A stretch of DNA of 64,000 bases. It comes from Pseudanabaena mucicola FACHB-723. GTDB taxonomy: Bacteria > Cyanobacteriota > Cyanobacteriia > Pseudanabaenales > Pseudanabaenaceae. The notes below the pieces were generated by a model. That model was not told where the DNA came from, did not search any database, and worked only from the letters and a program-made list of their open reading frames with translations. Of this stretch, positions 27,691-60,124 are shown one piece after another. Position 1 is the first letter of the stretch; each line of letters starts with the position of its first letter. The position numbers and the translations under genes are program-made. Location of the stretch: assembly GCF_014696385.1 (NCBI RefSeq), contig NZ_JACJQB010000001.1:248001-312000 (forward strand), given 5' to 3'.

Positions 27691-27722
27691 AACCAAATTA
27701 ATTAAGCGACGAACAAAAATTC

Positions 27723-27762
27723 GCAGTAATTTGGATACCGTATACAGTATCCAAATTACTGC
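27723..27762. promoter_or_regulatory. Extended inverted repeat carrying a degenerate GntR-type operator
   Basis: Perfect 16-bp arms (27723-27738, 27747-27762) enclose CGTATACA. Within it, 27739-27753 matches the operator TGTATACAGTATACA at 12 of 15 positions. It lies 42 bp upstream of the porin start, divergent from the Rieske gene. Confidence 0.65.
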
Positions 27763-27845
27763 GATTAAACTGGAAAATTGCGATCGCTTTCTGTATTTAC
27801 AAACACAGAATGTTTGACTTCAACCCACTTAAATACCTGTAGTTG

Positions 27846-27860
27846 TGTATACAGTATACA
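27846..27860. promoter_or_regulatory. Purine-regulon operator, perfect copy
   Basis: TGTATACAGTATACA, one base before the Rieske oxygenase ATG. It includes TATACA, a -10-like hexamer placed so that transcription would begin at or next to the ATG. Confidence 0.8.
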
Positions 27861-27861
27861 A

Positions 27862-28854
27862 ATGCTAGTCACTAGTCAGCCATTATTCAAACGCTTTTGG
27901 TATCCCGTTTTACCCATGTCTTTACTTGCCGAAGACAAGCCCCAAAGCTTTCAACTACTGGGACAAAAAATTGTGGTGTGGTTAGCGGCAGAAGGTAAAC
28001 CTGCTGCTGCGCCCGATCGCTGTTGTCATCGTTCGGCTAAGCTCTCCCTCGGTAAAGTGACAGATGGATTACTAGAATGTGCCTATCATGGTTGGCAATA
28101 TGATGGCAGTGGTAGCTGTTTGCGTGTTCCTCAAATATCCACTGATGCGCCAATTCCCAAAAACTATCGCATTAACACCTATGCTTGCGAAGAGCGCTAT
28201 GGTTATGTTTGGGTATGTTTAGAAGATCCGATTAACAAAATTCCAGAACTTCCTGAAGCGAGCGATCCAGAGTTTCGATTGATTCCCGAGTTCTATGAGA
28301 TCTGGAACTGTGCGGGATTGCGGGTCATGGAAAATGAAATGGATCTCGCCCATCCCACCTTTGTGCATACGACTACTTTTGGTAGTGCAGAGCATCCCAT
28401 TCCTGAAGAGTTAGAAATTACGGAAACTGATTATGGTCTGAGAGCGACGGCAACTCTGGGTGTAGTTAATCCTGAGTCTCAGCAAAAGAATTTGAAAATG
28501 GATAGCTATATCACCCATCGCAAGCTAGAAATGGATTGGTTTATGCCCTTCACTTGCAAATTACGGATTAATTATCCCAATGGCTTAGTCCATATTGTCG
28601 TTAATACAGCGACTCCGATTGATGATAAGTCTTCGCAAATTGTACAGTTCTGTATGCGAAATGATACTGAAGAACAAACCAAAGCGGCAGATGCGATCGC
28701 CTTTGATCGACAAGTTACCTTAGAGGATAAGGCGATTTTGGAGTCAACTGATTACGATGTGCCGTTAGATGCCAAATTTGAGCAGCATATGATGACCGAT
28801 CGTCCTGGCTTACTCATGCGTCGCAAACTTGCCGCAATGCTTAGCACCGTGTAA
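27862..28854 (+). CDS. Rieske non-heme iron oxygenase, candidate purine hydroxylase (HpxD-like role)
   Basis: 330 residues. N-terminal Rieske domain (about 8-115) with Cys54-x-His56 and Cys73-x2-His76 for the [2Fe-2S] cluster. Catalytic domain with the mononuclear iron motif Asp161-x2-His164-x4-His169. The ATG at 27862 follows the operator by one base with no Shine-Dalgarno, so the mRNA is probably leaderless. The fold is that of VanA/PaO-type alpha subunits. In Klebsiella, the Rieske protein HpxD acts in hypoxanthine oxidation in the urate pathway; the setting here, under the same operator as hpxO, suggests a similar step. No reductase partner is seen in the window. The substrate is inferred only. 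Confidence 0.85.
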   Translation: MLVTSQPLFKRFWYPVLPMSLLAEDKPQSFQLLGQKIVVWLAAEGKPAAAPDRCCHRSAKLSLGKVTDGLLECAYHGWQYDGSGSCLRVPQISTDAPIPKNYRINTYACEERYGYVWVCLEDPINKIPELPEASDPEFRLIPEFYEIWNCAGLRVMENEMDLAHPTFVHTTTFGSAEHPIPEELEITETDYGLRATATLGVVNPESQQKNLKMDSYITHRKLEMDWFMPFTCKLRINYPNGLVHIVVNTATPIDDKSSQIVQFCMRNDTEEQTKAADAIAFDRQVTLEDKAILESTDYDVPLDAKFEQHMMTDRPGLLMRRKLAAMLSTV

Positions 28855-28883: not shown

Positions 28884-29243
28884 CTAGCTTCCGCGATAGG
28901 TGCTATAAGCCCAAGGTGATACCAGTAAGGGAACATGGTAGTTAGCATTAACATCAGCAATCCCAAAGCGAATAGGAACGCGAGTTAAGAAAGGAGGTTG
29001 GGTTTGCGATACTTCTAGACTTGCAAAATAGTCACTCACATTAAACCAAATTTCATAAATACCTGACTGCATCTCTGCACCACTTAGTAATGGTTGATCG
29101 GTTCTACCATCTTGATTGGTCTGTAGAGTTTTGAGTAGGGTCTTTATTTCGTGATTGTCAATTACCCATAACTCAATCTGCATATTTCTTGCAGGCGATC
29201 CGTTTACTGTATCGAGAACATGGGTTGAGAGTTTTCCAGTCAT
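28884..29243 (-). CDS. uraH: 5-hydroxyisourate hydrolase (transthyretin-related)
   Basis: 119 residues from the ATG at 29243; the frame extends to 29279 but that would place the operator inside the gene. Family marks: [12 protein letters not shown] near the N terminus, the Arg in [24 protein letters not shown] with the diagnostic C-terminal YRGS. It hydrolyses 5-hydroxyisourate, the HpxO product, to OHCU. No signal peptide, so cytoplasmic. Divergent from the allophanate-hydrolase-like gene with shared operators between. Confidence 0.94.
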
Positions 29244-29278
29244 AGTATACTGTATTTGATAATTGCATACTGTATACA
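29244..29278. promoter_or_regulatory. Two purine-regulon operator copies in the HIU hydrolase divergon
   Basis: 29264-29278 is TGCATACTGTATACA (14 of 15 to the consensus). 29244-29258 is a weaker copy (about 11 of 15) that touches the HIU hydrolase ATG. The pair is spaced 20 bp centre to centre, about two helical turns. Confidence 0.7.
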
Positions 29279-29311: not shown

Positions 29312-29704
29312 ATGACCACATCTAACGGTACAAGACGAGTATTTATCTGCGGTTCGGCATTGCGGGGACAGCCCGATCATGGCAATTTGCAAGGCGCAAA
29401 ATTTATCCGTACTGCTAATACCCAATCACGCTATCGACTTCATGCGGCTGGCGACGGTTGGCATCCTGCGATTTACGAAGTAGAAACAGGTGGTATTTCT
29501 ATTCCTGGAGAAGTCTATGAGATGCAAGCCGATGAATTTGAATACCTCGCTAGTAACGAGCCTCCTCATATGTATCCTACGGATGTTTATTTGGAAGATG
29601 GCGAAGTATTGACAGCTTTCTTTTATCCCCAAGAGCTAATTGAAAAATTTAATTGGAAAGATATTTCCGATCTTGGTGGTTGGGCTGCTTACAAAAGCGC
29701 CTAG
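29312..29704 (+). CDS. Allophanate-hydrolase C-terminal-like / gamma-glutamylcyclotransferase-fold protein
   Basis: 130 residues. The sequence VFICGSALRGQPDHGNL, then HPAIYEVETGG and IPGEVYEM, fits the small C-terminal domain of allophanate hydrolase (AGCT fold), here as a stand-alone protein without the amidase domain. In allophanate hydrolase this domain decarboxylates or assists turnover of the amide product. Its role next to urate genes is unknown. Start ATG 29312 (a TTG at 29303 is also in frame). Divergent from HIU hydrolase under shared operators; its end lies in a bidirectional terminator. Confidence 0.75.
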   Translation: MTTSNGTRRVFICGSALRGQPDHGNLQGAKFIRTANTQSRYRLHAAGDGWHPAIYEVETGGISIPGEVYEMQADEFEYLASNEPPHMYPTDVYLEDGEVLTAFFYPQELIEKFNWKDISDLGGWAAYKSA

Positions 29705-29756: not shown

Positions 29757-30827
29757 TTAGTCTAGACGAGCGATCGCCGCAACTGCCCCACCACCAGAAG
29801 GTCCTTGATGTTCCGCACCTCCCGATACATAAACCATCGGATCTTGGACAATAGAAGCCACTACTGCCCCAACCACTGCCCTTGCCATGCGCGTATGGTT
29901 AATATCGGAGTCATCCATCATCGTATGTCTTCTGCCTAAAAGCTGTCCCGTTGGGTCAGCTTCAGCTTTGGCAAATATATTTACGACCCGATCGCTGGTT
30001 TGACCTGTGGAGGCGATCGCTTTAGTAACTGCCTCAGCATCTAGAGCGTGTTGCATCACACTATGACCAATCACAAAATTGCTAGTGGATGTTGGTGCAT
30101 TCCCTAATACCAAAATCTCGCAGTTGCGTAACTCCACCCCTGCGGATGTGGAGGCAACGCTGGAATACAAAGCATAATTTTGGCAAATATCGGCGGCGGT
30201 GAGATCTTCTAATTGAACTTCACCTAGGGCAACCGCTACGCCTAGCGCTGAGGCTCCGCGCGAGTAACCCATTGACTGATAGCTGCTTACCGATTTACTC
30301 ACTGATTTCGCATCACGATCTTCATCGAGCAAGCGATCGCGACTGGTGACAAGGGGACATTTAATCTGGACAAAATGCACATCCTCTTTAGCGATTCCTG
30401 CGGTAGCGATCGCTTGATTCACGGCTAGAGCGACTTCTTTGACCATCGTTAACGAACCAATTTCCGCAGGAGTAAAATCACGGGTATGAATCACTCCTAG
30501 GGTTAAAGCCATACGAGTTGGGGTGTCTGGCAATGAAGCTTGACTTGTAAAAATTGTTAAATGGGGGCTTAAGGCTCCCTCAGTCCCCCCAGACATGACA
30601 TAGACGATCTCTGCCGATTTGTCCTGACCTACAAAATTTGCAAGGTAGTGCTTTAAAGTTTGCACCGCAAAGCCGCGCGTAAAATCATTAACACAGCCAT
30701 TTCCTTCGGTCTTTCCCATAATCGCGACAATGTGCTGGGGATTAATTTTACCTGAAGCGATCGCCGCCTCTAGAGACGTGAGATCATCAGGACTATTTTG
30801 CGGAAGCTTATATACATCAACTTTCAT
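29757..30827 (-). CDS. Cyanuric acid hydrolase/barbiturase family ring-opening amidohydrolase
   Basis: 356 residues with three internal repeats, each contributing a Lys/Ser pair to one active site. Repeat 1: GKTEGNGCVNDFTRG (Lys39), VMSGGTEG (Ser79). Repeat 2: VQIKCPLV (Lys156), YSSVASTSAGVE (Ser near 226). Repeat 3: NIFAKAEADP (Lys287), YVSGGAEHQGPSGGG (Ser335). Details such as MGYSRGASALG and SGGAEHQGP are closer to cyanuric acid hydrolase (AtzD/TrzD) than to barbiturase as I recall them. It opens six-membered N-heterocycles. It probably ends the hpxO-uraD-puuE operon (38 bp gap). Its natural substrate in a purine setting is unknown. Confidence 0.88.
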   Translation of the reverse strand: MKVDVYKLPQNSPDDLTSLEAAIASGKINPQHIVAIMGKTEGNGCVNDFTRGFAVQTLKHYLANFVGQDKSAEIVYVMSGGTEGALSPHLTIFTSQASLPDTPTRMALTLGVIHTRDFTPAEIGSLTMVKEVALAVNQAIATAGIAKEDVHFVQIKCPLVTSRDRLLDEDRDAKSVSKSVSSYQSMGYSRGASALGVAVALGEVQLEDLTAADICQNYALYSSVASTSAGVELRNCEILVLGNAPTSTSNFVIGHSVMQHALDAEAVTKAIASTGQTSDRVVNIFAKAEADPTGQLLGRRHTMMDDSDINHTRMARAVVGAVVASIVQDPMVYVSGGAEHQGPSGGGAVAAIARLD

Positions 30828-30865: not shown

Positions 30866-31768
30866 TTAGGCTGGTTTGTGGTGCTTGTGCCAATGACGAG
30901 CAATGTCAATACGGCGACAAATCCAGACGCGATCGCGACTCTGTATATAGTCTAAAAATCTTGCCAAAGCTGCTGCTCGTCCTGCTCTACCCACTAACCG
31001 ACAATGCAAACCAATACTCATCATTTTGGGAGAAGTGTCGCCTTCGTCGTAGAGAACATCAAAGGCATCACGCAAATAGGCAAAAAACTGATCGCCCGAA
31101 TTAAAGCCTTGGGGTGTGGCAAAGCGCATATCGTTGTTGTCGAGGGTATAGGGAATAATTAGGTGAGGCTTGCCATATTCATAGTTCCAATAGGGAAGAT
31201 CGTCGGCATAGCTATCGGAATCGTAGAGAAAACCTCCTTCTTCTACAACTAAGCGGCGGGTATGCTCGCTAGTGCGCCCCGTATACCATCCGAGGGGGCG
31301 TGTTCCTGTAATCTCTGTATGAATAGCGATCGCCTTTTGCAGATGTTCGCGCTCTTGTTCGGGCGAAAAATATTTGTAATCAATCCAACGATAGCCATGA
31401 CTAGCGATTTCCCAATCGGCTTCTAGCATGGCGGTAACTGCTTCAGGATTACGAGCGAGTGCCATCGCAATACCGTAAATAGTTACAGGAATATTGCGAT
31501 CGCAAAACATCCGATATAAGCGCCAAAATCCTGCACGACTGCCATATTCATAGCAAGATTCCATATTCATGTGACGCAATCCATTAAAAGGAACTGCGCC
31601 CACAATTTCTGACAAAAAAGTTTCAGAGGCACTGTCTCCATGTAGGATACAAGTTTCGCCGCCTTCTTCATAATTAATCACAAACTGGACAGCCACACGA
31701 GCATTGTCTTTCCATTTTGCATCAGGAGTAAATCTCCCGTAGCCAATCATGTCTCTGGGGTAGGTCAT
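30866..31768 (-). CDS. puuE: Allantoinase, PuuE type
   Basis: 300 residues, polysaccharide-deacetylase fold, cytoplasmic. It carries the PuuE signature series: YPRDMIGYG at the N terminus, NYEEGGE, MESCYEYGSRAGFWRL, SHGYRWIDYK, GWYTGRTSEHTRR, YDSDSYADDLPYW and GLHCRLVGRAGR. It opens allantoin to allantoate without the metal centre of classic allantoinases. Third gene after hpxO and uraD on the minus strand, separated from uraD by a 46-bp palindrome that could attenuate readthrough. Confidence 0.96.
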   Translation of the reverse strand: MTYPRDMIGYGRFTPDAKWKDNARVAVQFVINYEEGGETCILHGDSASETFLSEIVGAVPFNGLRHMNMESCYEYGSRAGFWRLYRMFCDRNIPVTIYGIAMALARNPEAVTAMLEADWEIASHGYRWIDYKYFSPEQEREHLQKAIAIHTEITGTRPLGWYTGRTSEHTRRLVVEEGGFLYDSDSYADDLPYWNYEYGKPHLIIPYTLDNNDMRFATPQGFNSGDQFFAYLRDAFDVLYDEGDTSPKMMSIGLHCRLVGRAGRAAALARFLDYIQSRDRVWICRRIDIARHWHKHHKPA

Positions 31769-31804: not shown

Positions 31805-31850
31805 TAAAAATTAGTAGGGGCAATTCATGAATTGCCCCTACTAATTTTTA
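31805..31850. terminator. 46-bp perfect palindrome spanning the uraD stop codon
   Basis: Fully self-complementary over 23 bp per arm with no loop, core AATTCATGAATT. The uraD stop lies inside it. Possible partial terminator or mRNA-stabilising hairpin between uraD and puuE. Confidence 0.8.
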
Positions 31851-32341
31851 ACTGCTAAAACTAACCGCCATCTGGCAATTTCGATAATTTCAGCGATCGC
31901 CTGATTTTTTTCTACTTCTAAATTGTTCTTAAGTCTCTGCTCAAAAGCGGCGAGAATACTATCTTTGGTATGGTTGCGAACGGCGATGATAAAAGGGAAT
32001 GAGAACTTATCTTTGTAGGCTTGATTAAGATTTTGAAAGCGATCGTATTCTATAGCGGAGAGTTGATCGAGTCCGACGGTGGATTGCTCCTGTACTGAGG
32101 CTTCTGCCATTTTGAATTTACTACCCAGATCGGGATGAGCGCAAATTAACTTTAATTTCTCCGCGTCGTTCATTGCCATCACGATCGCTGCCATGACTTG
32201 ATGTAAATTCTGGACATCAGCAAAAGGACACGATCGCCATGCTTCGGCAGCTATTTCGGGTGTATGTTCAAAGATCGAACCGAGCGCTTCGGTAAATTCT
32301 GCTTGACTCATTTGATTGAGAGTGTTGATCGGATAACTCAA
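31841..32341 (-). CDS. uraD: OHCU decarboxylase
   Basis: 166 residues, all helical. The family motifs CAHPDLGSK (catalytic His) and NQAYKDKFSFPFIIAV are present. It decarboxylates 2-oxo-4-hydroxy-4-carboxy-5-ureidoimidazoline to S-allantoin. The start is TTG at 32341, overlapping the hpxO stop as TTGA, which implies translational coupling; an ATG ten codons in is possible but would cut into the conserved N-terminal helix. Confidence 0.94.
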   Translation of the reverse strand: MSYPINTLNQMSQAEFTEALGSIFEHTPEIAAEAWRSCPFADVQNLHQVMAAIVMAMNDAEKLKLICAHPDLGSKFKMAEASVQEQSTVGLDQLSAIEYDRFQNLNQAYKDKFSFPFIIAVRNHTKDSILAAFEQRLKNNLEVEKNQAIAEIIEIARWRLVLAVKN

Positions 32342-33507
32342 TGTAATGGACCTCCACTAATAATTTTGGCGATCGCACTGGTGACATCTGAGGGGCTTTC
32401 CTGTGAGAGTTGGTCATACCACTTTTGGGTAACTTCAGGATCTTTGCCATGAATAGCTTCTGCACGATTACGCGCTTTATTTACGATTTCTGTAGTTCTC
32501 ACCTTGCGTTCTTTCTCGTAACGCATCAGGGCATCGGTGACACTTACATTAGTTGATAATAGATAGTTGGCGATGACAAAGCCATCTTCGAGGGCTTGAC
32601 ATCCTCCCTGTCCTAAATCTGGACAAGTCGCATGAGCCGCATCACCCAACAGAGCCACCCGACCTTTGACCATTTTTTCAATAGGTCCTACGTCATGAAT
32701 TTCCACCCTTGCAACATTCTCAGGATCGAGGCGATCGATTAATAGCTGCACAGGCTTTGCCCAATTGTGAAAATGTTCCTTGAGTTCATGACGATAGTTA
32801 GTACGATCATTGGTTGTGCCTGTAGGTAGTGGCACATCAAAAAAGAAATAAAAGCGATCGCCAGCAACAGGCATCAATGAGGCGCGTTTGTGTTCTCCCA
32901 CATAGATCGACCACATATCCGCAGGTGCAAGATCTCCACTAATTGGAACTAATCCATTCCAATTCACATAACCCCGATAGGTTGGTTCAATTGTTTTATT
33001 GAGAACATATTTTCGCAACAAGGAACGCACTCCGTCAGCAGCAATTAATACATCGCCTGTGGCAGAGCTTCCATCTTCAAACTTAGCACTAACATCGCGA
33101 TCGCTTTCTACGCAATCAATACATTTAGTACCCAGAGTTATTGTGCCGCCGAGGGACTCAAATGATGATAAGAGAAGATTTTGTAAATCTCGTCTTGCTA
33201 CAGGGTAAGGGCGTTGACCGACTTCATCGATTAAAGGTTGAAGCGGAATTTCGTTGAGTAAGCTCCCCGACAAATGGCGGTACTCCATCCGATTCATCTG
33301 TCCGCCGATCGCTGCCATTTTGTCCCCTAGCCCAAGTCGATTGAGAACTTTCACTCCATTTGACCAGAGCGAAATCCCTGCACCCGTAGGACGTAAGTCT
33401 CTTACGCGATCGTAAATCTCTACTTCATAGCCCGCCTGTCGCAGCGCAATTCCTGCCGTCAGACCGCCAATACCCGCACCGATTATGATTGCTTTTAAAC
33501 CGTACAC
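32338..33507 (-). CDS. hpxO: FAD-dependent urate hydroxylase HpxO
   Basis: 389 residues from the GTG at 33507, which has an AGGAA upstream; the frame runs on to 33543 but that would start inside the operator. FAD Rossmann motif IIIGAGIGGLTAG at the N terminus, the DG/GD region LLGDAAHATCPDLGQGG, and HpxO-specific stretches YVNWNGLVPI, SLMPVAGDRFYFFFDVPLP and ISGGPLH at the end match Klebsiella HpxO closely from memory. It converts urate to 5-hydroxyisourate with NADH and O2. First gene of the hpxO-uraD-puuE-amidohydrolase operon. Confidence 0.96.
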   Translation of the reverse strand: MYGLKAIIIGAGIGGLTAGIALRQAGYEVEIYDRVRDLRPTGAGISLWSNGVKVLNRLGLGDKMAAIGGQMNRMEYRHLSGSLLNEIPLQPLIDEVGQRPYPVARRDLQNLLLSSFESLGGTITLGTKCIDCVESDRDVSAKFEDGSSATGDVLIAADGVRSLLRKYVLNKTIEPTYRGYVNWNGLVPISGDLAPADMWSIYVGEHKRASLMPVAGDRFYFFFDVPLPTGTTNDRTNYRHELKEHFHNWAKPVQLLIDRLDPENVARVEIHDVGPIEKMVKGRVALLGDAAHATCPDLGQGGCQALEDGFVIANYLLSTNVSVTDALMRYEKERKVRTTEIVNKARNRAEAIHGKDPEVTQKWYDQLSQESPSDVTSAIAKIISGGPLH

Positions 33508-33527
33508 TAACTCATTCCTGCACAAAA

Positions 33528-33542
33528 TGTATACTGTATACA
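33528..33542. promoter_or_regulatory. Purine-regulon operator, perfect copy, at hpxO
   Basis: TGTATACTGTATACA, a perfect palindrome around one central base, 20 bp upstream of the hpxO GTG. Confidence 0.85.
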
Positions 33543-33767
33543 TAGTTATTTCTAACCATTGTATATCAAGTTACAAAGCCTCAGTGCTTACACAAAAGCA
33601 ACTTAAATCTCAACAGATTTTTTCCTCGGATAATGCCGCTTTCAAGATGGTTTATTTGGCAATCATGATTTGTTTTTTTGTCAATCACTACAATACTCTC
33701 ATCCAATCTAAGATTCTTATTATTCCCCCTTGATCCCCCACCCCTTTTTTTATATTGAATTTTATAA

Positions 33768-34472
33768 ATGTTATTAGCTATGAAAAGTAATTCCTTAGAT
33801 CAACTTTTTTACTCCAGTCTGGTCACTGAACATATTGTCCCCAAAGGCAGAGATTTTGCTTTTAAAAGATGGCATAACAAATTAGTTGAATCTGCAAAGC
33901 AATATGACGGCTTTTTACGATGCGATCTCTCCCCACCGCTTAGATGTAAAGATCAAATTGTCAAGTGGTATTACATTACACATTTTGATTCGCCTGAGCA
34001 TCTGAATGAATGGATGGAATCAAGTGAGCGCAAACAGTTATTAGAATCTGGACGAGAAGTATTTTCTGCTTATCGATTTAAGTCTTTTACAACTGGCTTA
34101 GAAGGCTGGTTCTCAATGCAGTCAGGTAATTCAGAATATAAAGGATTAGGTCCTTCGCGATGGAAGCAGATTTTAGCAGTCGTTTTAGGGCTGTATCCTG
34201 TGGTGATGATCCAAGCGATCGCCTTTTCAATTTTAAAACTGATGCAATCTTGGTCATTAGCAAACTCAATGATTGTGAACAACCTAATTACTTCCACAAT
34301 ATTGAGCTTCGCAGTAATGCCTTTTGTATCAAAGCGGTTAAGTTTTTGGTTGCGCCCAGCCTATCTACCGATATCCCGTAGAGCTAATTTAATCGGTACA
34401 ATTATTGTCTTTGTTAGCTTGGGGTTAATGGTAATCATATTTAATTTGGCGTTAGCACTCATACCGCAATAA
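33768..34472 (+). CDS. Antibiotic-biosynthesis-monooxygenase-like membrane protein
   Basis: 234 residues. The N-terminal part (about 15-110) looks like a dimeric alpha-beta barrel (ABM-like; KRWHNKLVESAKQYDGFLRCD, WYYITHFDSPEHLNEWMES). The C-terminal part (about 130-232) has three hydrophobic segments. This ABM plus membrane-anchor layout is known from conserved bacterial proteins without a firm function. It sits between hpxO and the NCS2 permease but has no operator within 200 bp of its start, so regulon membership is unproven. Its end overlaps a bidirectional terminator. Confidence 0.7.
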   Translation: MLLAMKSNSLDQLFYSSLVTEHIVPKGRDFAFKRWHNKLVESAKQYDGFLRCDLSPPLRCKDQIVKWYYITHFDSPEHLNEWMESSERKQLLESGREVFSAYRFKSFTTGLEGWFSMQSGNSEYKGLGPSRWKQILAVVLGLYPVVMIQAIAFSILKLMQSWSLANSMIVNNLITSTILSFAVMPFVSKRLSFWLRPAYLPISRRANLIGTIIVFVSLGLMVIIFNLALALIPQ

Positions 34473-34518: not shown

Positions 34519-35961
34519 CTAAGCAGTATTTTCTTGGGTTACAAGAACTTCATCCTCAAAACGAGGCAATAGCCAACTAAGTAAAATAGCGGTCAAACCA
34601 CCTGTAGAGATAGCAGAACCAAAGAGGTTACTGAAAATCGGTGGTTTACCTACGAAAATATCAGGCACAAATACTACTCCTAAGCCTAAACCAAGGGATA
34701 CTGCAACAATAATCATTGAACGGCGATCCAGTCCTGCGGATACGACGATATTTAAACCCGCTACAGCGATCGAACCAAACATAACTAGAGTTGCACCCCC
34801 CAAAACAGGCTGTGGCAGAGCTTGAAATACACCACCAATCACAGGTAACAACCCTAGGATTGCAAAAATGCCAGCTACAAAAAAACCAACATAACGACTA
34901 CCTACGCCCGTCATCTGAATCACACCATTATTTTGGCTAAAGGTAGTGTTAGGAAATGTGTTGAGAACCGCAGCAATTAATGAATTAATTCCATCTCCCA
35001 GAACTCCACCCTTAATACGACGAATATATACTCCACCTTTGACTGGTTCTCCAGACACTGCTGAAGTTGCTGTTAAATCGCCAACAGTTTCGATCGCTGT
35101 CAAAATATAGAGCAGAATGAAGGGCAAGAAGGCTCCAAAGTCAAAACTGATGCCATAACGAAGAGGGATTGGAATTCTGAAGAAGGGAAGTTGACTTAGT
35201 GAGCTAAAGTTAACAATACCAAGGAACAGAGAGATAATAAAGCCAACTACTAGCCCGATGGCGATCGCACCCATTCTCAAAAAGCGGTTACTAGAAAGGG
35301 TCAAAATCACCACGATTAGCAGAACTGTTGCACCCAGAGCAAGGTTTTGAAGGCTGCCAAAGGAACCATCTTTTTTAGCTAAAGCGACCGCACCACCAGC
35401 TAAGCTAATCATCCCAGTTTTAATCAGTCCTAAACCAATAATCATTACCACCGTTCCAGAAACAACGGGAGTGATGATTTTATTTAAGAGATGTAAAAAC
35501 TGACTCAAAATAATTTCGACAAAAGCCCCAAACAAGCAAACTCCAAAGATCAGAGCTAGAGCTTGTTCTGGAGAACTACCTTTTTGGATCGCAACAGTTC
35601 CTACACCTAAAATCGGTCCTAGGAAAGCAAAACTGGTTCCTTGTAAACTTAGTAAACCTGAGCCAACAGGGCCAATTCTTTTACATTGAATATAAGTACA
35701 AATTCCAGAGGCAAAGAGCGACATACTAATCAAATAGCTAGTATTCGCTGCGTCTAATCCCAAGCTAGTACAGATAATAATTGGCGGCGTAATGATGCCA
35801 ACAAAGGCTGCCAGAACATGCTGAAAAGCCACAAAAATTGCTTCTATAACAGGGGGTTTATCATTAAGCCCGTAAATTAGTCCAGATTTACTGACTACTG
35901 GAGTCTCTGCGATGTTGTTGTCATATTCATCATCTAGGGCGAGAGCCTTTTCTGCATCCAT
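34519..35961 (-). CDS. NCS2 family xanthine/urate permease
   Basis: 480 residues from the ATG at 35961. Ten to fourteen hydrophobic segments. The NCS2/NAT signature reads QNNGVIQMTGVGSRYVG, whose QNxG form is typical of xanthine and urate transporters such as XanQ and UapA. It would bring purines across the inner membrane for the hpxO pathway. A perfect operator copy lies 35 bp upstream, so it is regulon-controlled. An in-frame extension to 36039 would run through the operator and is rejected. Confidence 0.92.
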   Translation of the reverse strand: MDAEKALALDDEYDNNIAETPVVSKSGLIYGLNDKPPVIEAIFVAFQHVLAAFVGIITPPIIICTSLGLDAANTSYLISMSLFASGICTYIQCKRIGPVGSGLLSLQGTSFAFLGPILGVGTVAIQKGSSPEQALALIFGVCLFGAFVEIILSQFLHLLNKIITPVVSGTVVMIIGLGLIKTGMISLAGGAVALAKKDGSFGSLQNLALGATVLLIVVILTLSSNRFLRMGAIAIGLVVGFIISLFLGIVNFSSLSQLPFFRIPIPLRYGISFDFGAFLPFILLYILTAIETVGDLTATSAVSGEPVKGGVYIRRIKGGVLGDGINSLIAAVLNTFPNTTFSQNNGVIQMTGVGSRYVGFFVAGIFAILGLLPVIGGVFQALPQPVLGGATLVMFGSIAVAGLNIVVSAGLDRRSMIIVAVSLGLGLGVVFVPDIFVGKPPIFSNLFGSAISTGGLTAILLSWLLPRFEDEVLVTQENTA

Positions 35962-35995: not shown

Positions 35996-36010
35996 TGTAT
36001 ACTGTATACA
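35996..36010. promoter_or_regulatory. Purine-regulon operator, perfect copy, at the NCS2 permease
   Basis: TGTATACTGTATACA, 35 bp upstream of the permease ATG on the minus strand. Confidence 0.85.
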
Positions 36011-39097: not shown

Positions 39098-39580
39098 TTA
39101 AGATGCTTTTGCCATTTGTTCTAAAATTCGCTGCACAATATTTAAACCCGTAAGCATTTGCCACGAGAAAATTCCAATAATTATTGCGTTAATTGAGATA
39201 TGGGAAACTCTTGCCCATTCTTTTCCCTGTTGCATTAATGGTGCGAGAGAAGCTGATGTCGCGGCTAAAAATGCTAACCCTAAGCCTGCAAATAAGTGTG
39301 CCCCGATTGCAAGTTTGCCACTGCTGTTATAGGTGACTGCCATTCCTCCAATTGCACCTCCGACCATTAGCACCAAAAAGACTGCTCCGATTTTGTAATG
39401 CTGAAGGTTGTAACGCTTAGATATTAATGCTTTCTTGATTTCGCCTTCAGATCTCCGCGCCTTGCGATATTGCAGTCCTAAGTAGGCTGCATAAATGGCG
39501 GTGGCAAAGGTGACAGTCATCAATACTGGATGGATAAATGTCACAATCGGCTGCAAGGGCTGTGGAATAGGAATAACCAT
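39098..39580 (-). CDS. DUF4079-type four-helix membrane protein with conserved His
   Basis: 160 residues, four hydrophobic helices. Histidines at 17, 61, 95 and 127 fall near one end of each helix, a pattern like that of cytochrome b561-type di-heme proteins. Whether it binds heme is inference. A perfect operator copy lies 67 bp upstream of its ATG with no other gene between, so it appears to be controlled with the purine genes. A role as electron donor for the Rieske oxygenase is one possibility; there is no direct evidence. Confidence 0.75.
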   Translation of the reverse strand: MVIPIPQPLQPIVTFIHPVLMTVTFATAIYAAYLGLQYRKARRSEGEIKKALISKRYNLQHYKIGAVFLVLMVGGAIGGMAVTYNSSGKLAIGAHLFAGLGLAFLAATSASLAPLMQQGKEWARVSHISINAIIIGIFSWQMLTGLNIVQRILEQMAKAS

Positions 39581-39646
39581 AGAACTCTTAAGACTCAGTA
39601 ACTGAGTGAATAAACTTTCTAAAATTTTAGAATGTACATTTATCTA

Positions 39647-39661
39647 TGTATACAGTATACA
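39647..39661. promoter_or_regulatory. Purine-regulon operator, perfect copy, at the DUF4079 gene
   Basis: TGTATACAGTATACA, 67 bp upstream of the DUF4079 ATG. Confidence 0.8.
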
Positions 39662-53497: not shown

Positions 53498-54307
53498 TTA
53501 CCTTGCCCAGTAAATCACTTTCTTTTCTATGGCGACAAATAAGGCGTATAGCATCACACCCAGAATCGCAAGGGCAATCAACGCGGCAAAAGCAAGAGGC
53601 ACATTAAAATCTGATGCGGCCTGTACGATCAGATAACCTAAACCTGCATTAGAAGCGATCGACTCAGCAATTACGGCTCCGATAAAGGAAAAGGAAACTG
53701 CGATTTTGAGAGAAGCGAATACATAGGGTAAGGTATGTGGCCAGCCAACTTTCTGGAATATCTCAAAATCAGATGCTCCCAAAGCATGTAAAACATCTTT
53801 CATCTCTGGTTCAATGGTTTCTAAACCTAGAGCGACATTAACTGCGATCGGAAAAAATGCTAACAAGAAGGCGGTGACGATCGCAGGAATGGCATTAGCG
53901 CCAAACCAGACTGCTAGCAATGGTACTAGTGCTGACTTTGGAATTGTATTAAAGGCAACTAGTAACGGATAGAAAGTTAGATAAATGAATCTAGAGTAAC
54001 CAATTAGAAAACCTAAAACTACACCAACGACGCTTGCGATCGCAAAACCTGCAAAGGTCGTCCAGACTGTTCTCAAAGAGTTTTCAGCAAGTTGAGGTGC
54101 AAACTTGATAGTTGCTTCTAAAATTTTGGAAGGTGCAGGTAAATTAAAAGGCTGAATCTTCAAAGCCCATACTGCAAATTCCCAGATGATAAATAATACA
54201 ACTGTGGCGATCGCTGGCAAAATGACCGTCGCAGCTTTAGTATTCAGAAAAGCATTAAAGTCAAACTTCTTGGGCGATCGTCTTGCATTCTCAATAGTTC
54301 CCTGCAT
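53498..54307 (-). CDS. ABC transporter permease (NitT/TauT-SsuC family)
   Basis: 269 residues, about six membrane helices, with the EAA-type loop NVALGLETIEPEMKDVLHALGAS and GWPHTLPYVFASLKIA that binds the ATPase. Third gene of the transporter; partners upstream are the ATPase and NMT1/THI5-type binding protein. Substrate inferred to be a purine or catabolite from the operator and neighbours. Confidence 0.9.
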   Translation of the reverse strand: MQGTIENARRSPKKFDFNAFLNTKAATVILPAIATVVLFIIWEFAVWALKIQPFNLPAPSKILEATIKFAPQLAENSLRTVWTTFAGFAIASVVGVVLGFLIGYSRFIYLTFYPLLVAFNTIPKSALVPLLAVWFGANAIPAIVTAFLLAFFPIAVNVALGLETIEPEMKDVLHALGASDFEIFQKVGWPHTLPYVFASLKIAVSFSFIGAVIAESIASNAGLGYLIVQAASDFNVPLAFAALIALAILGVMLYALFVAIEKKVIYWAR

Positions 54308-54360
54308 ATTTTCTCCTGATGATCATTGTCATATAAGTAGCTAGGCAAAATTAAATATAA

Positions 54361-54413
54361 AACCTTCAAAGCTATAGCGCACGTATAGTGTTCGCTACAG
54401 CTCTGAAGGTTTA
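54361..54413. terminator. Imperfect hairpin between ABC ATPase and permease genes
   Basis: AAACCTTC/GAAGGTTT outer arms and AGCTATAGCG/CGCTACAGCT inner arms with bulges; overlaps the ATPase stop. Inside an operon it may act as attenuator. Confidence 0.55.
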
Positions 54414-55235
54414 GTTTTTATGAATATGACGACGTAATTCGGCGGCAAGGTGAGCAAACTCATCACTGAGACACATTTCTAGAGTTCTTGGACGAGGTAA
54501 ATCAATATTCAATTTGAAAGCAATCTCGCTGGGTCTAGGACTCATTACATAAACTGTATCTGATAAAAATACAGCTTCTCTCAAATCATGGGTAATTAGA
54601 ATCCCCACGCATTTTGCTTCCATCCACAACTTTTGCAGCATTACCCACATTTCTTCACGGGTAAAGGCATCTAGCGCCCCAAATGGTTCATCTAATAGTA
54701 GGATTTCTGGCTTATGAATCAAGGAACGACAAAGGGAAGCTCTCTGACGCATACCACCAGATAACTGCCAAGGGAACTGCTGTTGAAAATCCTTTAAACC
54801 TACTGCCTGCAATAATTTTTGTGCCATCTCCACGTAATAAGCGTGATTAACTTTAAAATCGCGTTTATAAGGATGTACTACTTCTAATGGCAATAATACA
54901 TTATCAATAGTCCTCCGCCAAGGTAGTAATACCGGATTCTGGAAAGCAATACCCACATTTTTGAGTGGTTTGGTGACGGGTTGCCCATGACATCGCAACT
55001 CACCAATTTTAGTTGGACTTAAGCCTGAAACCATTCGTAAAATCGAAGTTTTACCGCATCCACTAGGTCCGACAAAGGAGACAAATTCACCAGCTTTGAT
55101 ATCAAGTGAGATTTCTTGAATAATCTGACGCATTGATTCGCCAAATGGATATTCCAAACCAATACGATCAAATTCTAACAAGGGTATAGAATGAGTAGCA
55201 GTTTCAGCAGAAGAGGAAGTTATAGGCTGAACCAT
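54411..55235 (-). CDS. ABC transporter ATP-binding protein (NitT/TauT-SsuB family)
   Basis: 274 residues. Walker A GPSGCGKTS, signature LSGGMRQRASLCRSL, Walker B ILLLDEPFGALDA, His switch in ITHDLREA. Short N-terminal Ser/Thr-rich stretch before the domain. Second gene of the transporter operon. Confidence 0.93.
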   Translation of the reverse strand: MVQPITSSSAETATHSIPLLEFDRIGLEYPFGESMRQIIQEISLDIKAGEFVSFVGPSGCGKTSILRMVSGLSPTKIGELRCHGQPVTKPLKNVGIAFQNPVLLPWRRTIDNVLLPLEVVHPYKRDFKVNHAYYVEMAQKLLQAVGLKDFQQQFPWQLSGGMRQRASLCRSLIHKPEILLLDEPFGALDAFTREEMWVMLQKLWMEAKCVGILITHDLREAVFLSDTVYVMSPRPSEIAFKLNIDLPRPRTLEMCLSDEFAHLAAELRRHIHKN

Positions 55236-55288
55236 TTTAGCTGTGCCTTTTAATTAAGTATTAAAGATCAAACCCAACAAGAGTTTTA

Positions 55289-55321
55289 AAAGCACAAAAT
55301 GGCATAGTCATTTTGTGCTTT
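55289..55321. terminator. Hairpin between binding-protein and ATPase genes
   Basis: Perfect 13-bp arms AAAGCACAAAATG/CATTTTGTGCTTT with a seven-base loop, five bases past the binding-protein stop. Confidence 0.7.
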
Positions 55322-55325
55322 GGTA

Positions 55326-56468
55326 TTAAAGTAATGGTTTACGCTCGCTAGCAGGAGGAATCATCCGTTGTTCTTTAGGAGGTAAAAACTTGTCGGTAAA
55401 CAAATCTGCGGAGGTAACAGGATTCAATTTGAAACCTTCGACAGTTTGAGCGATACTCTTATCGAGCCGTTTCATGTCCGCACTCCCTAAACCAGATGCT
55501 TCTAATTCTGGAGTCACATACATCCGTTCGAGGGCAAGTTTTAGACGTAGCTTCTCTGCATCTCGATCCATTAACTTACTTTGATCTGTGGATACAACTA
55601 AATCAAGGGCAGCACTAGGATCTTTGATAACCTCCTGCATTGCGCGAAAATAGGCTTTGAGGAAAGCTTTGATTGCTTCAGGATTTTTGGTCATGAAATC
55701 TTGTTTGACTAAAATGCCATTACCATAAAAATCTAGACCATATTCGTCATAGAAAAAGATTTGGATATCTTCCATTGTCTTTCCACCCTTGATCAAGGAT
55801 GGAATAACTGAAGTGTAGAAACCACTGACTGCGTCAACCTTACCTTGTAGCAAAAAGGTCTCACGCAGCTTGGGTTCCATTGTATCCCAAGTAACTGAAT
55901 CAGGAGAGATTTTGACTTCTTTTGCCAAAAGTGGAAATAGCTTGCGAGGTCCATCCCCTGCTGGCGCACCAAGCTTTTTACCAACTAAGTCCGCAGGACT
56001 TTTAATTCCATTTGCCTTGAAGGTGACAATCGAGAAAGGAGCTTTATTTTGATAAAAGGCTACGGCAAGAATCTTGTCATTAGGATTTTTGTCATTAAAC
56101 TCCATTGCATTATAGATATCGCTAAATGCCATGTCATATTTGCCAGTACCCAACTTACTAATGGTATCTGCGTTCCCAAAACCGCGTTCGTAGCTGACAT
56201 TCAATCCTTCTTCTGCAAAATAACCTTTTTCGATCGCCCAAATTAGCGGTGCATCAAGACTTTGCTTTAGAAAAGGAAGCTGCACACGAATATCTTGTTT
56301 AGTCTTTTGATCAGGATTTCCTGACTGGGGCGTTGTTGCTGTTGTTGCAGGCTTATCGCCAGAGGTTGTACTTGGGCTTGGTGGTGCAGTGTTACAAGCA
56401 GCAAGCACTGTTGTGGAAACTGCAATAAAAAGAATTCTGTGTAACTGTTTCTTGAAAGTATGAAGCAT
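55326..56468 (-). CDS. NMT1/THI5-type ABC substrate-binding lipoprotein
   Basis: 380 residues. Lipoprotein signal (cleavage before Cys in VLAACN), Ser/Thr/Pro-rich linker, then a two-lobed binding domain: LPFLKQSLDAPLIWAIEKGYF, with GLNVSYERGFGNAD, KLGAPAGDGPRKLF, FYGNGILVKQDFM. The family binds HMP-thiamine precursors, taurine, nitrate or other small molecules. A perfect operator 23 bp upstream places it under the purine regulator, so a purine or ureide ligand is plausible. Confidence 0.88.
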   Translation of the reverse strand: MLHTFKKQLHRILFIAVSTTVLAACNTAPPSPSTTSGDKPATTATTPQSGNPDQKTKQDIRVQLPFLKQSLDAPLIWAIEKGYFAEEGLNVSYERGFGNADTISKLGTGKYDMAFSDIYNAMEFNDKNPNDKILAVAFYQNKAPFSIVTFKANGIKSPADLVGKKLGAPAGDGPRKLFPLLAKEVKISPDSVTWDTMEPKLRETFLLQGKVDAVSGFYTSVIPSLIKGGKTMEDIQIFFYDEYGLDFYGNGILVKQDFMTKNPEAIKAFLKAYFRAMQEVIKDPSAALDLVVSTDQSKLMDRDAEKLRLKLALERMYVTPELEASGLGSADMKRLDKSIAQTVEGFKLNPVTSADLFTDKFLPPKEQRMIPPASERKPLL

Positions 56469-56490: not shown

Positions 56491-56505
56491 TGTATACTGT
56501 ATACA
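56491..56505. promoter_or_regulatory. Purine-regulon operator, perfect copy, at the ABC transporter
   Basis: TGTATACTGTATACA, 23 bp upstream of the binding-protein ATG. Confidence 0.85.
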
Positions 56506-56581: not shown

Positions 56582-56646
56582 GGTCTAAAGAGCAGAAGAC
56601 GAATTGCGGATATTTGCACCGTAATTCGTCTTCTGCTCTTTAGACC
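56582..56646. terminator. Terminator hairpin spanning the deaminase stop codon
   Basis: 28-base arms (56582-56609, 56619-56646) with one mismatch and a nine-base loop. The stem reaches into the last codons of the deaminase gene. Confidence 0.8.
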
Positions 56647-58001
56647 TGCAACATCGCAAGAGATAATTTATTTGTCCGTTCAATCAGCATTGGTAGATCG
56701 ACAGTAGCTAATTGCCCACGATCAATTACCATTCGACCATTAATAAAACTGTAATCCACATTCCCGACAGGACAAAAAATCAAAGCAGCGACTAAGTCGT
56801 GATGTGCCCCTGCAAACTCTGGACGATCCACATTTATGGCAATGAAATCTGCCGCCATCTGAGGAGCGATCGCACCAATGTCATCTCTCCCCAATACCTT
56901 CGCGCCGCCTAATGTAGCGACTTCTAAAATATCTCTCGCGGTCATTGACTTAGCATCGCCACTACCGACCCTTGCTAAGAGAAAAGCAGTTCTAGCTTCT
57001 TGCATCAAGTTCCCGATGTCATTGGAAGCGGAACCATCTACCCCCAAGCCCACAGGCACACCATGATTAAGCATTTTCCGAATTGATGCAATGCCACTCG
57101 CTAGACGCATATTGCTACAAGGACAATGCGCCACACCAGTGCCAGTGCGTCCAAATTTTAAAATTGCCCGATCACTTAACTTCACACAATGGGCGTGCCA
57201 GACATCATCACCAAGCCAACCGACTGATTCCGCATAGTCTTCAGGAGTCATTCCAAACTTCTGCAAACTATAATCAATATCAGATTGGTTTTCCGCAAGA
57301 TGAGTATGCAGTCTCACACTGGTATAGGATCGCGCCATTCTTGCCGACTCGCGCATGAGGTCAGGAGAAACGGAGAAAGGTGAACAGGGAGCCAATGTCA
57401 TTCGCAACATCGAATAGCGCGAAGGATCGTGATACTGTTCGATTAATCGTTGGGAATCTTTGAGAATATCTGCTTCCTTCTCCACTAAACTATCTGGAGG
57501 TAAGCCCCCAAGACTCTCGCCCACACTCATACTGCCGCGACTGGCATGAAAACGGATTCCGATCGCTTTCATCGCCGCAATTTCATCATCTAAGGTGCAG
57601 TCATTGGGATAGATATAGAGGTGATCGCTAGCAGTGGTGCAGCCAGAAAGCATGAGTTCGGCGGCGGCCATCTGAGCACTCACATAGACACCTTCAGCAG
57701 TCAGCTTTGACCAAATGGGATAGAGTGTTTTTAACCAGTTGAATAAATCGCAATTTTGAGCATCGGGAACTACTTTCGTCAGAGTTTGGTAGAAATGATG
57801 GTGGGTATTGACTAACCCTGGCATGACGATATGTCGTCCTTGCAAATCGAGAACTTGATCCGCCTCTTGAGGTAAATCTTCAGTTAGTCCTACCTGTGCG
57901 ATCGCCTGATCTTGCACAAAAATTGCCACATTATGAAGCTCACGGCGATCGCGATCCATTGTCACCAAAGTATGAATATTTTTGACAAGAACTGTACCCA
58001 T
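56640..58001 (-). CDS. 8-oxoguanine deaminase-like amidohydrolase
   Basis: 453 residues, ATG at 58001. Metal-dependent amidohydrolase (TIM barrel): GLVNTHHHFYQTLTKVV (metal HxH), HLAENQSDIDYSLQKFG (parts), WHAHCVKL, and metal Asp in GVDGSASND. The segment DYSLQKFGMTPEDYAES and WLGDDVWHAHC match the 8-oxoguanine deaminase branch as I recall it. The product of 8-oxoguanine deamination is urate, which would feed HpxO. The family also includes guanine- and triazine-deaminases. It follows the AllC-like gene on the same strand. Confidence 0.85.
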   Translation of the reverse strand: MGTVLVKNIHTLVTMDRDRRELHNVAIFVQDQAIAQVGLTEDLPQEADQVLDLQGRHIVMPGLVNTHHHFYQTLTKVVPDAQNCDLFNWLKTLYPIWSKLTAEGVYVSAQMAAAELMLSGCTTASDHLYIYPNDCTLDDEIAAMKAIGIRFHASRGSMSVGESLGGLPPDSLVEKEADILKDSQRLIEQYHDPSRYSMLRMTLAPCSPFSVSPDLMRESARMARSYTSVRLHTHLAENQSDIDYSLQKFGMTPEDYAESVGWLGDDVWHAHCVKLSDRAILKFGRTGTGVAHCPCSNMRLASGIASIRKMLNHGVPVGLGVDGSASNDIGNLMQEARTAFLLARVGSGDAKSMTARDILEVATLGGAKVLGRDDIGAIAPQMAADFIAINVDRPEFAGAHHDLVAALIFCPVGNVDYSFINGRMVIDRGQLATVDLPMLIERTNKLSLAMLQV

Positions 58002-58087: not shown

Positions 58088-59332
58088 TTATGGATAGCAA
58101 TTATCGATCGCCAAAAGTGTATGTAATAGAACATTTGTTCCTTGAGCACATTGTTCAGGAGAAGTATATTCATCTTGAGAATGGCTAATACCGTCACGAC
58201 TTGGCACAAAAATCATTCCCATATCTGTAAAACGTCCGATCTCTTGGGCATCATGTCCTGCCCGACTTGGTAAATAAGCATAACTAAGTTTGAGGTCTTG
58301 ACAAACTTTGGCGATCGCCTCCATTAGTTCCGATTTAGCTGGAGTTGGCAAAACATGGAGCTTCTGCTCAATCGTAATTTCTGTACCAGTGTTTGTGGCG
58401 ATCGTCTTACATTCCCGTTCAATCTCGGCAATCAGAAACCGTAAATTATCTTCTGAAAGGTCACGCAGATCTATACTCAAATCAACTCTCGCAGGCACAA
58501 CATTAGTGGCATTCGGTGCAACTGTGAGATATCCTACCGTGGCAACTTGCTCGCCATTACCTGAAATTCCCAAACGATTAATTGCTAATACCAGTTGAGC
58601 AGCCGCCACAAGAGCATCCTTTCGCATATTCATTGGTGTTGTTCCTGCATGGTTGGGGCGACCGACAATCTGCACCATAAAGCGATACTGGCCGACAATG
58701 CCTGTTACCACGCCGATCTGTTTATCTAGAGATTCCAATACTCCACCCTGCTCGACATGGAGTTCAATGAAAGCTGCTATGTCACAGCGATCGCGCTTTG
58801 CGGTTGCTAAAGCATTCCAATCACCGCCAACTTTAGCCAAACAATCCTGAATTGCTGTCCCATCTTTGCGGCGATAGCGTTCAGGATCTGTGGGCGCGTT
58901 ACCTGCAATCGCTTTGCAACCAATCACGCTATTTTCTTCATCAGAGAAAACAATTACTTCAAAAGGATGACGTAAACGAAACTGATTTTCTTGAAATACT
59001 CGTGCTACTTCAATCCCTGCTAAGACACCCAGACATCCATCATAACGCCCCCCCACAGGCACGGTGTCAATGTGCGAACCTGTCGCCAAAGCCCCAATCC
59101 CTACCTCTGTACCCGCATAAGTGCCAATGATATTCCCGACCGCATCACTGCGCACGCTCATCCCTGCTTCTAACATCCAAGTTTTGATCCGCGATCGTGC
59201 CTGCATATCGGCATCGGAAAAAGCTAGTCTACATACGCCTCCATTAGGTAGTCTACCTATTTCTGCAAGTTCAGCAAGATGGCGATCAATGCGATCGCAG
59301 TTTATTGATAGTCCTGAAAGTGTTACGATCAT
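58088..59332 (-). CDS. AllC-like Zn-dependent amidohydrolase (allantoate or N-carbamoyl amino acid)
   Basis: 414 residues, M20 peptidase fold. Metal and substrate motifs: TGSHIDTVPVGGRYDG, FSDEENSVIGCKAIAG, ELHVEQGGVLE, AGTTPMNMRKDA and GHDAQEIGRF. The family includes allantoate amidohydrolase (AllC) and N-carbamoyl-amino-acid hydrolases; next to allantoinase and the urate genes, allantoate is the better guess. It would release ammonia from allantoate. Divergent from the GntR gene with an operator between. Confidence 0.82.
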   Translation of the reverse strand: MIVTLSGLSINCDRIDRHLAELAEIGRLPNGGVCRLAFSDADMQARSRIKTWMLEAGMSVRSDAVGNIIGTYAGTEVGIGALATGSHIDTVPVGGRYDGCLGVLAGIEVARVFQENQFRLRHPFEVIVFSDEENSVIGCKAIAGNAPTDPERYRRKDGTAIQDCLAKVGGDWNALATAKRDRCDIAAFIELHVEQGGVLESLDKQIGVVTGIVGQYRFMVQIVGRPNHAGTTPMNMRKDALVAAAQLVLAINRLGISGNGEQVATVGYLTVAPNATNVVPARVDLSIDLRDLSEDNLRFLIAEIERECKTIATNTGTEITIEQKLHVLPTPAKSELMEAIAKVCQDLKLSYAYLPSRAGHDAQEIGRFTDMGMIFVPSRDGISHSQDEYTSPEQCAQGTNVLLHTLLAIDNCYP

Positions 59333-59385: not shown

Positions 59386-59400
59386 AATATACTGTATACA
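59386..59400. promoter_or_regulatory. Purine-regulon operator at the AllC/GntR divergon
   Basis: AATATACTGTATACA, 13 of 15 to the consensus, between the AllC-like gene and the GntR regulator; suggests autoregulation. Confidence 0.75.
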
Positions 59401-59431: not shown

Positions 59432-60124
59432 ATGTTTTCTTCATCTGCGCCAATTCAGCGTCCACAGTCTTTGCGCGAACAGACCTACCAAGTATTGCGA
59501 TCGGCTATCTTGTCAGGTGAGTTTGCCTCTGACTCACGTTTGGTAGAAACGCAAATTGCCAAGAAACTGCAAGTTAGTCGGACACCGATTCGTGAAGCTC
59601 TGCAACAGTTACAAAAAGAACAACTTATTGTTGCCGATGGAAATGGAAACTTACGAGTAATTAGTTTCTCCATTGAAGATGCCCAAAATCTCTATCGTTG
59701 TCGATTAGTGTTAGAGCAGGAGTCGGTATCAGATGCTTGTAAACACGCTACGCCTGAACAGTTAGAAAAAATAGAATTACTTGTTCAAGAAGCTGAAAAA
59801 GCCAGCGCTCAGCACCCCAATCCGCTTACTAGTTATCAACTACTTCACCTTGACTATCAGTTTCATCGTGCGCTCGTCGAATGTTCGGGCAATCCTTGGT
59901 TATCACTTCTGCTCGATCAGTTGTTTGACAAGATGGCATTGTTACGAATCCAAACGGTTCAACGTAATCTCCAAGTTTTAGAGATTCGCTCTGAACATCG
60001 ACAAATATATGAAGCAATTGCCCAACGCAATGTTAAGAAAGCTCTAGCTTCAATTCGTACTCACCTTACTTCAAGCCAAAATCGAGTGATTGCTGAAATT
60101 GAACAATTGCAAGCCAAGGTATAG
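59432..60124 (+). CDS. GntR/FadR-type (FCD) transcriptional regulator
   Basis: 230 residues. Winged HTH (about 11-75): LREQTYQVLRSAILSG, then RLVETQIAKKLQVSRTPIREA. FCD sensing domain (about 85-220) with likely metal ligands D-x3-H (DYQFHRAL), His in SEHRQIYEA and His in RTHLTSSQ. FCD proteins bind a metal and often a small acid or intermediate. It is the only regulator near either purine locus and its own operator copy lies upstream, so I infer that it controls TGTATACWGTATACA sites; a ligand such as urate or allantoate is a guess. Confidence 0.88.
   Translation: MFSSSAPIQRPQSLREQTYQVLRSAILSGEFASDSRLVETQIAKKLQVSRTPIREALQQLQKEQLIVADGNGNLRVISFSIEDAQNLYRCRLVLEQESVSDACKHATPEQLEKIELLVQEAEKASAQHPNPLTSYQLLHLDYQFHRALVECSGNPWLSLLLDQLFDKMALLRIQTVQRNLQVLEIRSEHRQIYEAIAQRNVKKALASIRTHLTSSQNRVIAEIEQLQAKV

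Follow-up and report, generated by a model that had tools for sequence, protein, structure and literature searches.

The purine cluster of Pseudanabaena mucicola FACHB-723 raises the question of which enzyme makes the urate that its urate hydroxylase, HpxO, consumes. The cluster lies within 64,000 nucleotides of contig NZ_JACJQB010000001.1 (hereafter the window). An earlier note, made from the letters of this DNA, pointed to a Rieske oxygenase gene near hpxO as a possible molybdenum-free purine hydroxylase recalling Klebsiella HpxD, xanthine dehydrogenase (XDH) being absent. We refer to this gene and its product as RHO; the features of the locus are collected in Table 1.

Table 1. Purine-related genes and operator copies in the window
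Feature	Position	Strand	Basis or remark
Imperfect palindrome, 44 nt, 20-bp stem	27721..27764		between OprB porin and RHO; two overlapping weaker operator copies (27732, 27739)
Operator at RHO	27846..27860		exact TGTATACAGTATACA; kept upstream of RHO in L023-L026, L030, L033, L199, L201
RHO, proposed purine C8 hydroxylase	27862..28854	+	PF00355 + PF19112; invariant Rieske and iron-site residues
hiuH, 5-hydroxyisourate hydrolase	28884..29243	-	TIGR02962 above cut-off; mechanical ORF to 29279, MTGKL start inferred
Operator copy between hiuH and AH_C gene	29264..29278		operator scan
AH_C / GGACT-like protein	29312..29704	+	recurs in other purine clusters
AtzD/TrzD ring-opening amidohydrolase (cyanuric acid hydrolase / barbiturase family)	29757..30827	-	NF052395 above cut-off
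puuE, allantoinase	30866..31768	-	TIGR03212
uraD, OHCU decarboxylase	31841..32341	-	TIGR03164
hpxO, FAD urate hydroxylase	32338..33543	-	NF033623, 607 bits; Klebsiella HpxO 3rp6, E 5e-118; ORF end overlaps operator, true start probably inside ORF
Operator copy at hpxO	33528..33542		exact match
NCS2 purine permease	34519..35961	-	TIGR00801 above cut-off; best model pbuX just below cut-off; start inferred
Operator copy at NCS2 permease	35996..36010		exact match
ABC transporter: permease, ATPase, NMT1-type binding protein	53498..56468	-	operator upstream
Operator copy at ABC operon	56491..56505		exact match
8-oxoguanine deaminase family	56640..58001	-	NF006055, 673 bits
Allantoate amidohydrolase family (allC-like)	58088..59332	-	family assignment
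Operator copy between allC and regulator	59386..59400		2 mismatches
GntR/FCD regulator	59432..60124	+	PF00392 + PF07729; probable operator reader

The Rieske oxygenase gene and its operator

RHO is an intact open frame encoding 330 residues. The mechanical ORF opens earlier, at a TTG at 27778, but all of the aligned orthologues share the MLxT start that opens the frame at 27862. The Rieske (PF00355, 77 bits) and VanA_C (PF19112, 72 bits) domains both score above cut-off. The ligands of the Rieske cluster (C-x-H ... C-x2-H) are C54, H56, C73 and H76 and, like D161, H164 and H169, they are invariant across all aligned orthologues. These residues had been listed correctly in the earlier note, which called the motifs complete but omitted the third iron ligand, D289; this residue is also invariant, and aligns to Asp280 of SxtT, named as an iron ligand of that enzyme (PMC7293229). 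The 2-His-1-carboxylate site is thus complete, i.e. H164, H169 and D289, together with D161 as the bridging Asp. Ligands, iron site, VanA_C domain and fold all identify RHO as a Rieske non-heme iron oxygenase of the VanA type.

The suggestion that RHO stands under the operator of hpxO was borne out, as an exact copy of TGTATACAGTATACA ends 1 nt before the RHO ATG. Exact copies also precede hpxO, the NCS2 permease gene, the ABC operon and, at 39647, the gene for a DUF4079 membrane protein (39098-39661). At up to three mismatches the window contains 21 operator matches, against 1.5 expected from shuffles, and nine of the ten genome-wide places at up to two mismatches fall within it. The operator is exact upstream of RHO in other Pseudanabaena (L023-L025), and operator-like sites precede RHO in Xenococcus (L026), Waterburya (L030) and two further genomes (G308, locus L199; G121, locus L201). 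In Halomicronema (L033) such a site stands before an orphan RHO that no urate genes adjoin. The GntR/FCD protein encoded at 59432 probably reads the operator, and in L023 a gene for a regulator of this type lies directly upstream of RHO. No sigma-70-like promoter was found upstream of RHO, which says little in cyanobacteria. Riboswitch control (NMT1/xanthine) was dropped as a candidate, as neither the window nor eight RHO loci searched gave a purine-type match.

Several other genes of the cluster recur elsewhere. The stand-alone allophanate-hydrolase-C/GGACT-like gene is found beside puuE, allC or GntR genes in many cyanobacterial purine clusters (L023, L025, L035, L041, L198, L201, L207). A 234-residue protein encoded between hpxO and the permease gene (33768-34472) has a weak relative (23%) in L026, the purine cluster of Xenococcus, and L201 encodes an ABM-like protein that was noted with it. 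A DUF4079 gene also occurs near an HpxD-type gene in L209; a link of DUF4079 to electron transfer is speculative. In Pseudanabaena sp. ABRG5-3 (L161, NZ_AP017563) the same purine cluster is carried on a 135-kb plasmid with RHO missing and the porin gene directly beside hiuH, which makes it a natural RHO-minus comparison.

Relation of RHO to HpxD and to other Rieske enzymes

HpxD (Klebsiella HpxDE; the PGAP name is molybdenum cofactor-independent xanthine hydroxylase subunit HpxD) resembles RHO in combining Rieske and VanA_C domains with the iron-site residues and no molybdenum, and in occupying the same pathway slot beside hpxO, uraD and uraH. It differs in that RHO has no HpxE-type reductase partner and lies under a GntR/FCD-type operator, whereas HpxD is paired with the LysR regulator HpxR. 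For comparison we used Klebsiella and Erwinia HpxD, which were identified beside hpxO and hpxR and taken from mislabelled plasmid records. RHO is 30-31% identical to these proteins, no closer than it is to several unrelated VanA-type enzymes. A maximum-likelihood tree with 72 rows places the RHO clade (38 rows, support 100/100) outside the HpxD clade (10 rows, 100/99) and gives NdmA and NdmB a clade of their own. A tree constrained to make RHO and HpxD sisters is 4.9 log units worse, but the AU test does not reject it (p-AU 0.29), so the two may be sister clades. The likeness to HpxD does not extend to orthology, which is ruled out by 30% identity and by separate clades at 100% support. A residue signature of RHO and HpxD (N203, R220, F230, R266/N267, E288) was dropped as evidence because RHO shares as many columns with another two-row branch (8 vs 8).

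True HpxD orthologues (47-51% identical to the Klebsiella protein) do exist in other cyanobacteria (G170, G346, G296, G185, G289, G011, G193). They include L209 8117-9388, L212 7366-8400 and L213 7258-8385, which are without HpxE, and two of the cyanobacterial orthologues lie beside a guanine deaminase gene and a permease-like gene. In G185 and G289 the guanine deaminase adjoining the HpxD-type gene shares 65-66% identity with the guanine deaminase encoded after RHO in G286. Guanine deaminase homologues beside both types indicate that RHO and HpxD share a slot between guanine deaminase and hpxO, and RHO is possibly an analogue of HpxD. More distant Rieske matches on plasmids (31-33%; L147-L149) belong to clusters without urate genes.

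Among solved proteins the best relatives of RHO by sequence are the methylxanthine demethylase NdmA, which is the best PDB match, and SxtDIOX. The AlphaFold model of RHO (pLDDT 88) is closest in fold to SxtT (Z 33.5, 2.4 A over 313 residues), with Z about 33 for SxtT/GxtA, 33.0 for NdmA with caffeine and 31 for dicamba monooxygenase (DdmC). SxtT and GxtA are cyanobacterial saxitoxin hydroxylases that monohydroxylate a polar, guanidine-bearing tricycle; RHO is 25-29% identical to them and differs in pathway and in pocket residues (Q262, D282). D282 is present in all 38 RHO rows, compared with Asn in all ten HpxD rows, and its column aligns with the substrate-contact Tyr273 of SxtT and with a NdmA position changed in the QL mutant. 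The column of SxtT Met255 is Gln in 38/38 RHO rows. Judged from the alignment, the pocket residues would fit a polar heterocycle but do not identify which.

Distribution of RHO, hpxO and molybdenum hydroxylases

RHO orthologues (47-89% identity, the closest, at 88-89%, being in Pseudanabaena) are encoded at 23 genome-contig loci. Operons of the type hpxO-hiuH-RHO-(8-oxoguanine deaminase)-uraD occur in L035-L038, L040, L041, G172, G129 and G354, and the RHO orthologues in urate operons span several cyanobacterial families besides that of the window. Genes of this set, hpxO, hiuH and uraD in the first two, also adjoin or lie close to RHO in L026, L030, G308, G215, G121 and G286. About half of the RHO-bearing genomes have an orphan RHO away from urate genes; RHO is without urate neighbours in G116, G008, G177, G060, G332, G091 and G039 and at L027-L029, L031, L032, L034 and L042, and the proteobacterial orthologues likewise lie away from urate genes. 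In each of G193, G011 and G005 two more distant copies (53-56%) stand in tandem. Such diverged pairs lie at L191 510-2629, L192 529-2943 and L193 2984-5082, the last near ABC transporter genes, and all three genomes also have XDH; the tandem copies possibly act on a different purine-like substrate.

We counted co-occurrence in 386 cyanobacterial genomes, taking HpxO above cut-off, RHO at 53% identity or more, and PF02738 as the marker for molybdenum hydroxylases. HpxO was found in 25 genomes and RHO in 18: 15 had both, 10 hpxO only, 3 RHO only and 358 neither (Fisher p 6.8e-18, uncorrected for kinship). The 15 genomes with both are spread over 11 family-level groups, and nine of them are without an XDH-type molybdenum hydroxylase. 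The sole PF02738 gene of G308 lies in a Pao-like operon and, read by eye from the sequences, was not counted as XDH-type. Eight of the ten hpxO genomes without RHO have an XDH-type enzyme, while G185 and G289, which make up the remainder, encode a true HpxD orthologue, so that all 25 hpxO genomes carry an XDH-type, RHO or HpxD-type enzyme. The contrast between RHO and XDH is weak across all 15 genomes (p 0.10); excluding those with tandem copies lowers p to 0.005, a split chosen after seeing the data. In a separate set of named cyanobacterial RHO genomes, 17/21 lack PF02738 and 17/21 have HpxO above cut-off; the two sets are not to be added because two genomes occur in both (G039 is L039 and G354 is L041). 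Kamptonema UHCC 0994 and Pseudanabaena biceps PCC 7429 are examples of XDH-free strains with RHO. RHO occurs without HpxO above cut-off in three named Nostocales and in G091, G177 and G332, and a class-wide search around G409 found no HpxO above cut-off.

The statement in the earlier note that XDH is absent holds for the window but not for the genome, which has an XdhA/XdhB/XdhC-like set on another contig; XDH models are the best matches of the XdhA- and XdhB-like proteins, yet these score below NCBI's cut-offs. RHO is therefore not the sole candidate in this genome, where the step would be redundant. The operator has no match in the 3.7-kb XdhB locus, and the genome-wide scan (up to two mismatches) places none on the XDH contig; RHO is thus a member of the purine regulon and XDH, if functional, lies outside it. 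The proposal of a molybdenum-free purine hydroxylase has strong comparative support from urate operons, co-occurrence with hpxO, the common operator and the nine XDH-free hpxO genomes in which RHO is the sole candidate for making urate, without being the only explanation of urate formation in this strain.

Proposed reaction, its electron donor and alternative readings

We consider it fairly likely that RHO is a ferredoxin-fed Rieske C8 hydroxylase of an oxopurine, most probably converting xanthine to urate. Purines would induce the gene by way of the GntR/FCD regulator. Conversion of xanthine to urate is the simplest reading of the substrate, and guanine might also be hydroxylated, to 8-oxoguanine. 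This would be the reaction of molybdenum XDH (XdhAB) carried out by an unrelated protein with a different metal. The urate would then pass to HpxO, HIU hydrolase, OHCU decarboxylase, allantoinase and allantoate amidohydrolase. Several observations count against this reading: the XdhABC-like genes of this genome, the frequent orphan copies of RHO, the genomes that have RHO but no HpxO above cut-off, the residues shared with HpxD being no more numerous than with another branch, and the ABRG5-3 cluster that lacks RHO.

The earlier note saw no reductase in the window, and we found this to hold genome-wide for Fer2-domain reductases: proteins with this domain comprise open frames of ferredoxin size, XdhA and iron-sulphur subunits (L158 resembles the succinate dehydrogenase iron-sulphur protein), with no VanB/HpxE-type reductase among them. 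A tblastn search of the RHO loci with HpxE gave a match only in L046, which is not an orthologue, and none of the RHO orthologues has an HpxE homologue nearby. A soluble ferredoxin is therefore the likely electron donor; the electrons would come from photosynthetic PetF, reduced by photosystem I or FNR, and not from a dedicated HpxE-type reductase.

A broader version of this proposal, which we put forward only tentatively, is that RHO represents a second Rieske lineage besides HpxD, i.e. a light-driven, ferredoxin-fed C8 hydroxylase of broad range, acting on both xanthine and guanine, that displaced the molybdenum enzyme in many cyanobacteria and converged with HpxD on one step.

RHO could instead attack guanine, and not xanthine, at C8, with the co-regulated 8-oxoguanine deaminase then giving urate directly. 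That deaminase is in the same regulon as RHO and in the RHO operon of L038 (directly after RHO), G129 and G172, all of which are without XDH and guanine deaminase, and the XDH-free G121, G129, G172, L030 and L038 have it while lacking guanine deaminase. However, G116, G286 and G308 combine RHO with guanine deaminase and lack 8-oxoguanine deaminase (the order in G286 being hpxO-RHO-guanine deaminase), and 8-oxoguanine deaminase is about equally frequent in hpxO genomes with RHO (9/15) and without it (4/10). Its presence does not demand 8-oxoguanine as a substrate, because xanthine, too, is formed from guanine by relatives of this enzyme (PMC6186785). Both deaminases are missing from G039 and G354, and a strict dependence of RHO on 8-oxoguanine deaminase is not supported by the genome distribution. 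We regard attack on guanine alone as unlikely.

It is slightly less likely still that RHO is an NdmA-like oxidative N-demethylase of methylated purines, with XDH or another enzyme making urate. NdmA and NdmB share the VanA-type fold and have purines as ligands, NdmA is the best PDB match, and an imported methylxanthine could enter via the ABC or NCS2 transporter. They are about 28% identical to RHO, catalyse N-demethylation rather than the proposed ring hydroxylation and have NdmD as reductase partner (PMC12445004), and RHO is no closer to NdmA than to SxtT by tree or fold. Moreover, nine genomes with hpxO and RHO have neither XDH nor an HpxD orthologue, so under N-demethylation they would have no known urate-forming step.

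Oxidation of another N-heterocycle under the same regulator, e.g. of uracil to barbiturate for an AtzD/barbiturase-family enzyme, seems very improbable. A ring-opening amidohydrolase is present in the cluster and the proteobacterial RHO orthologues lie away from urate genes, but an AtzD homologue stands beside RHO in the window only (panel searches of other RHO loci gave none), and ABRG5-3 has AtzD in a cluster without RHO (L161 18658-19728). Lastly, cyanobacteria have chlorophyll/pheophorbide-related (PaO/CAO) oxygenases, one of them (L021) in this genome, and the earlier note had held that grouping with these would refute its proposal; that RHO is such an enzyme, present by chance, is scarcely credible, as the PaO domain PF08417 is absent from RHO but scores 93 bits in L021, the neighbours of RHO in sequence and fold are SxtT, NdmA and DdmC, and operator and operons link it to hpxO.

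Our literature search gave no account of a Rieske enzyme hydroxylating purines in cyanobacteria, but this counts for little, since most subscription papers lay outside the search. If RHO hydroxylates xanthine as proposed, it fills the missing urate-forming step in the nine hpxO genomes that have no XDH-type enzyme or HpxD orthologue. Molybdenum-free oxidation of purines would then have a further Rieske branch, separate from HpxD and at work in a phototroph that has no dedicated reductase. The same step thus appears to be filled by two branches of a single family of iron enzymes, of which HpxD is the one already named for it. The proposal bears on the use of purine nitrogen by XDH-free cyanobacteria and on photosynthetic ferredoxin as the driver of the step, and a missing molybdenum XDH does not mean that purine catabolism is missing.
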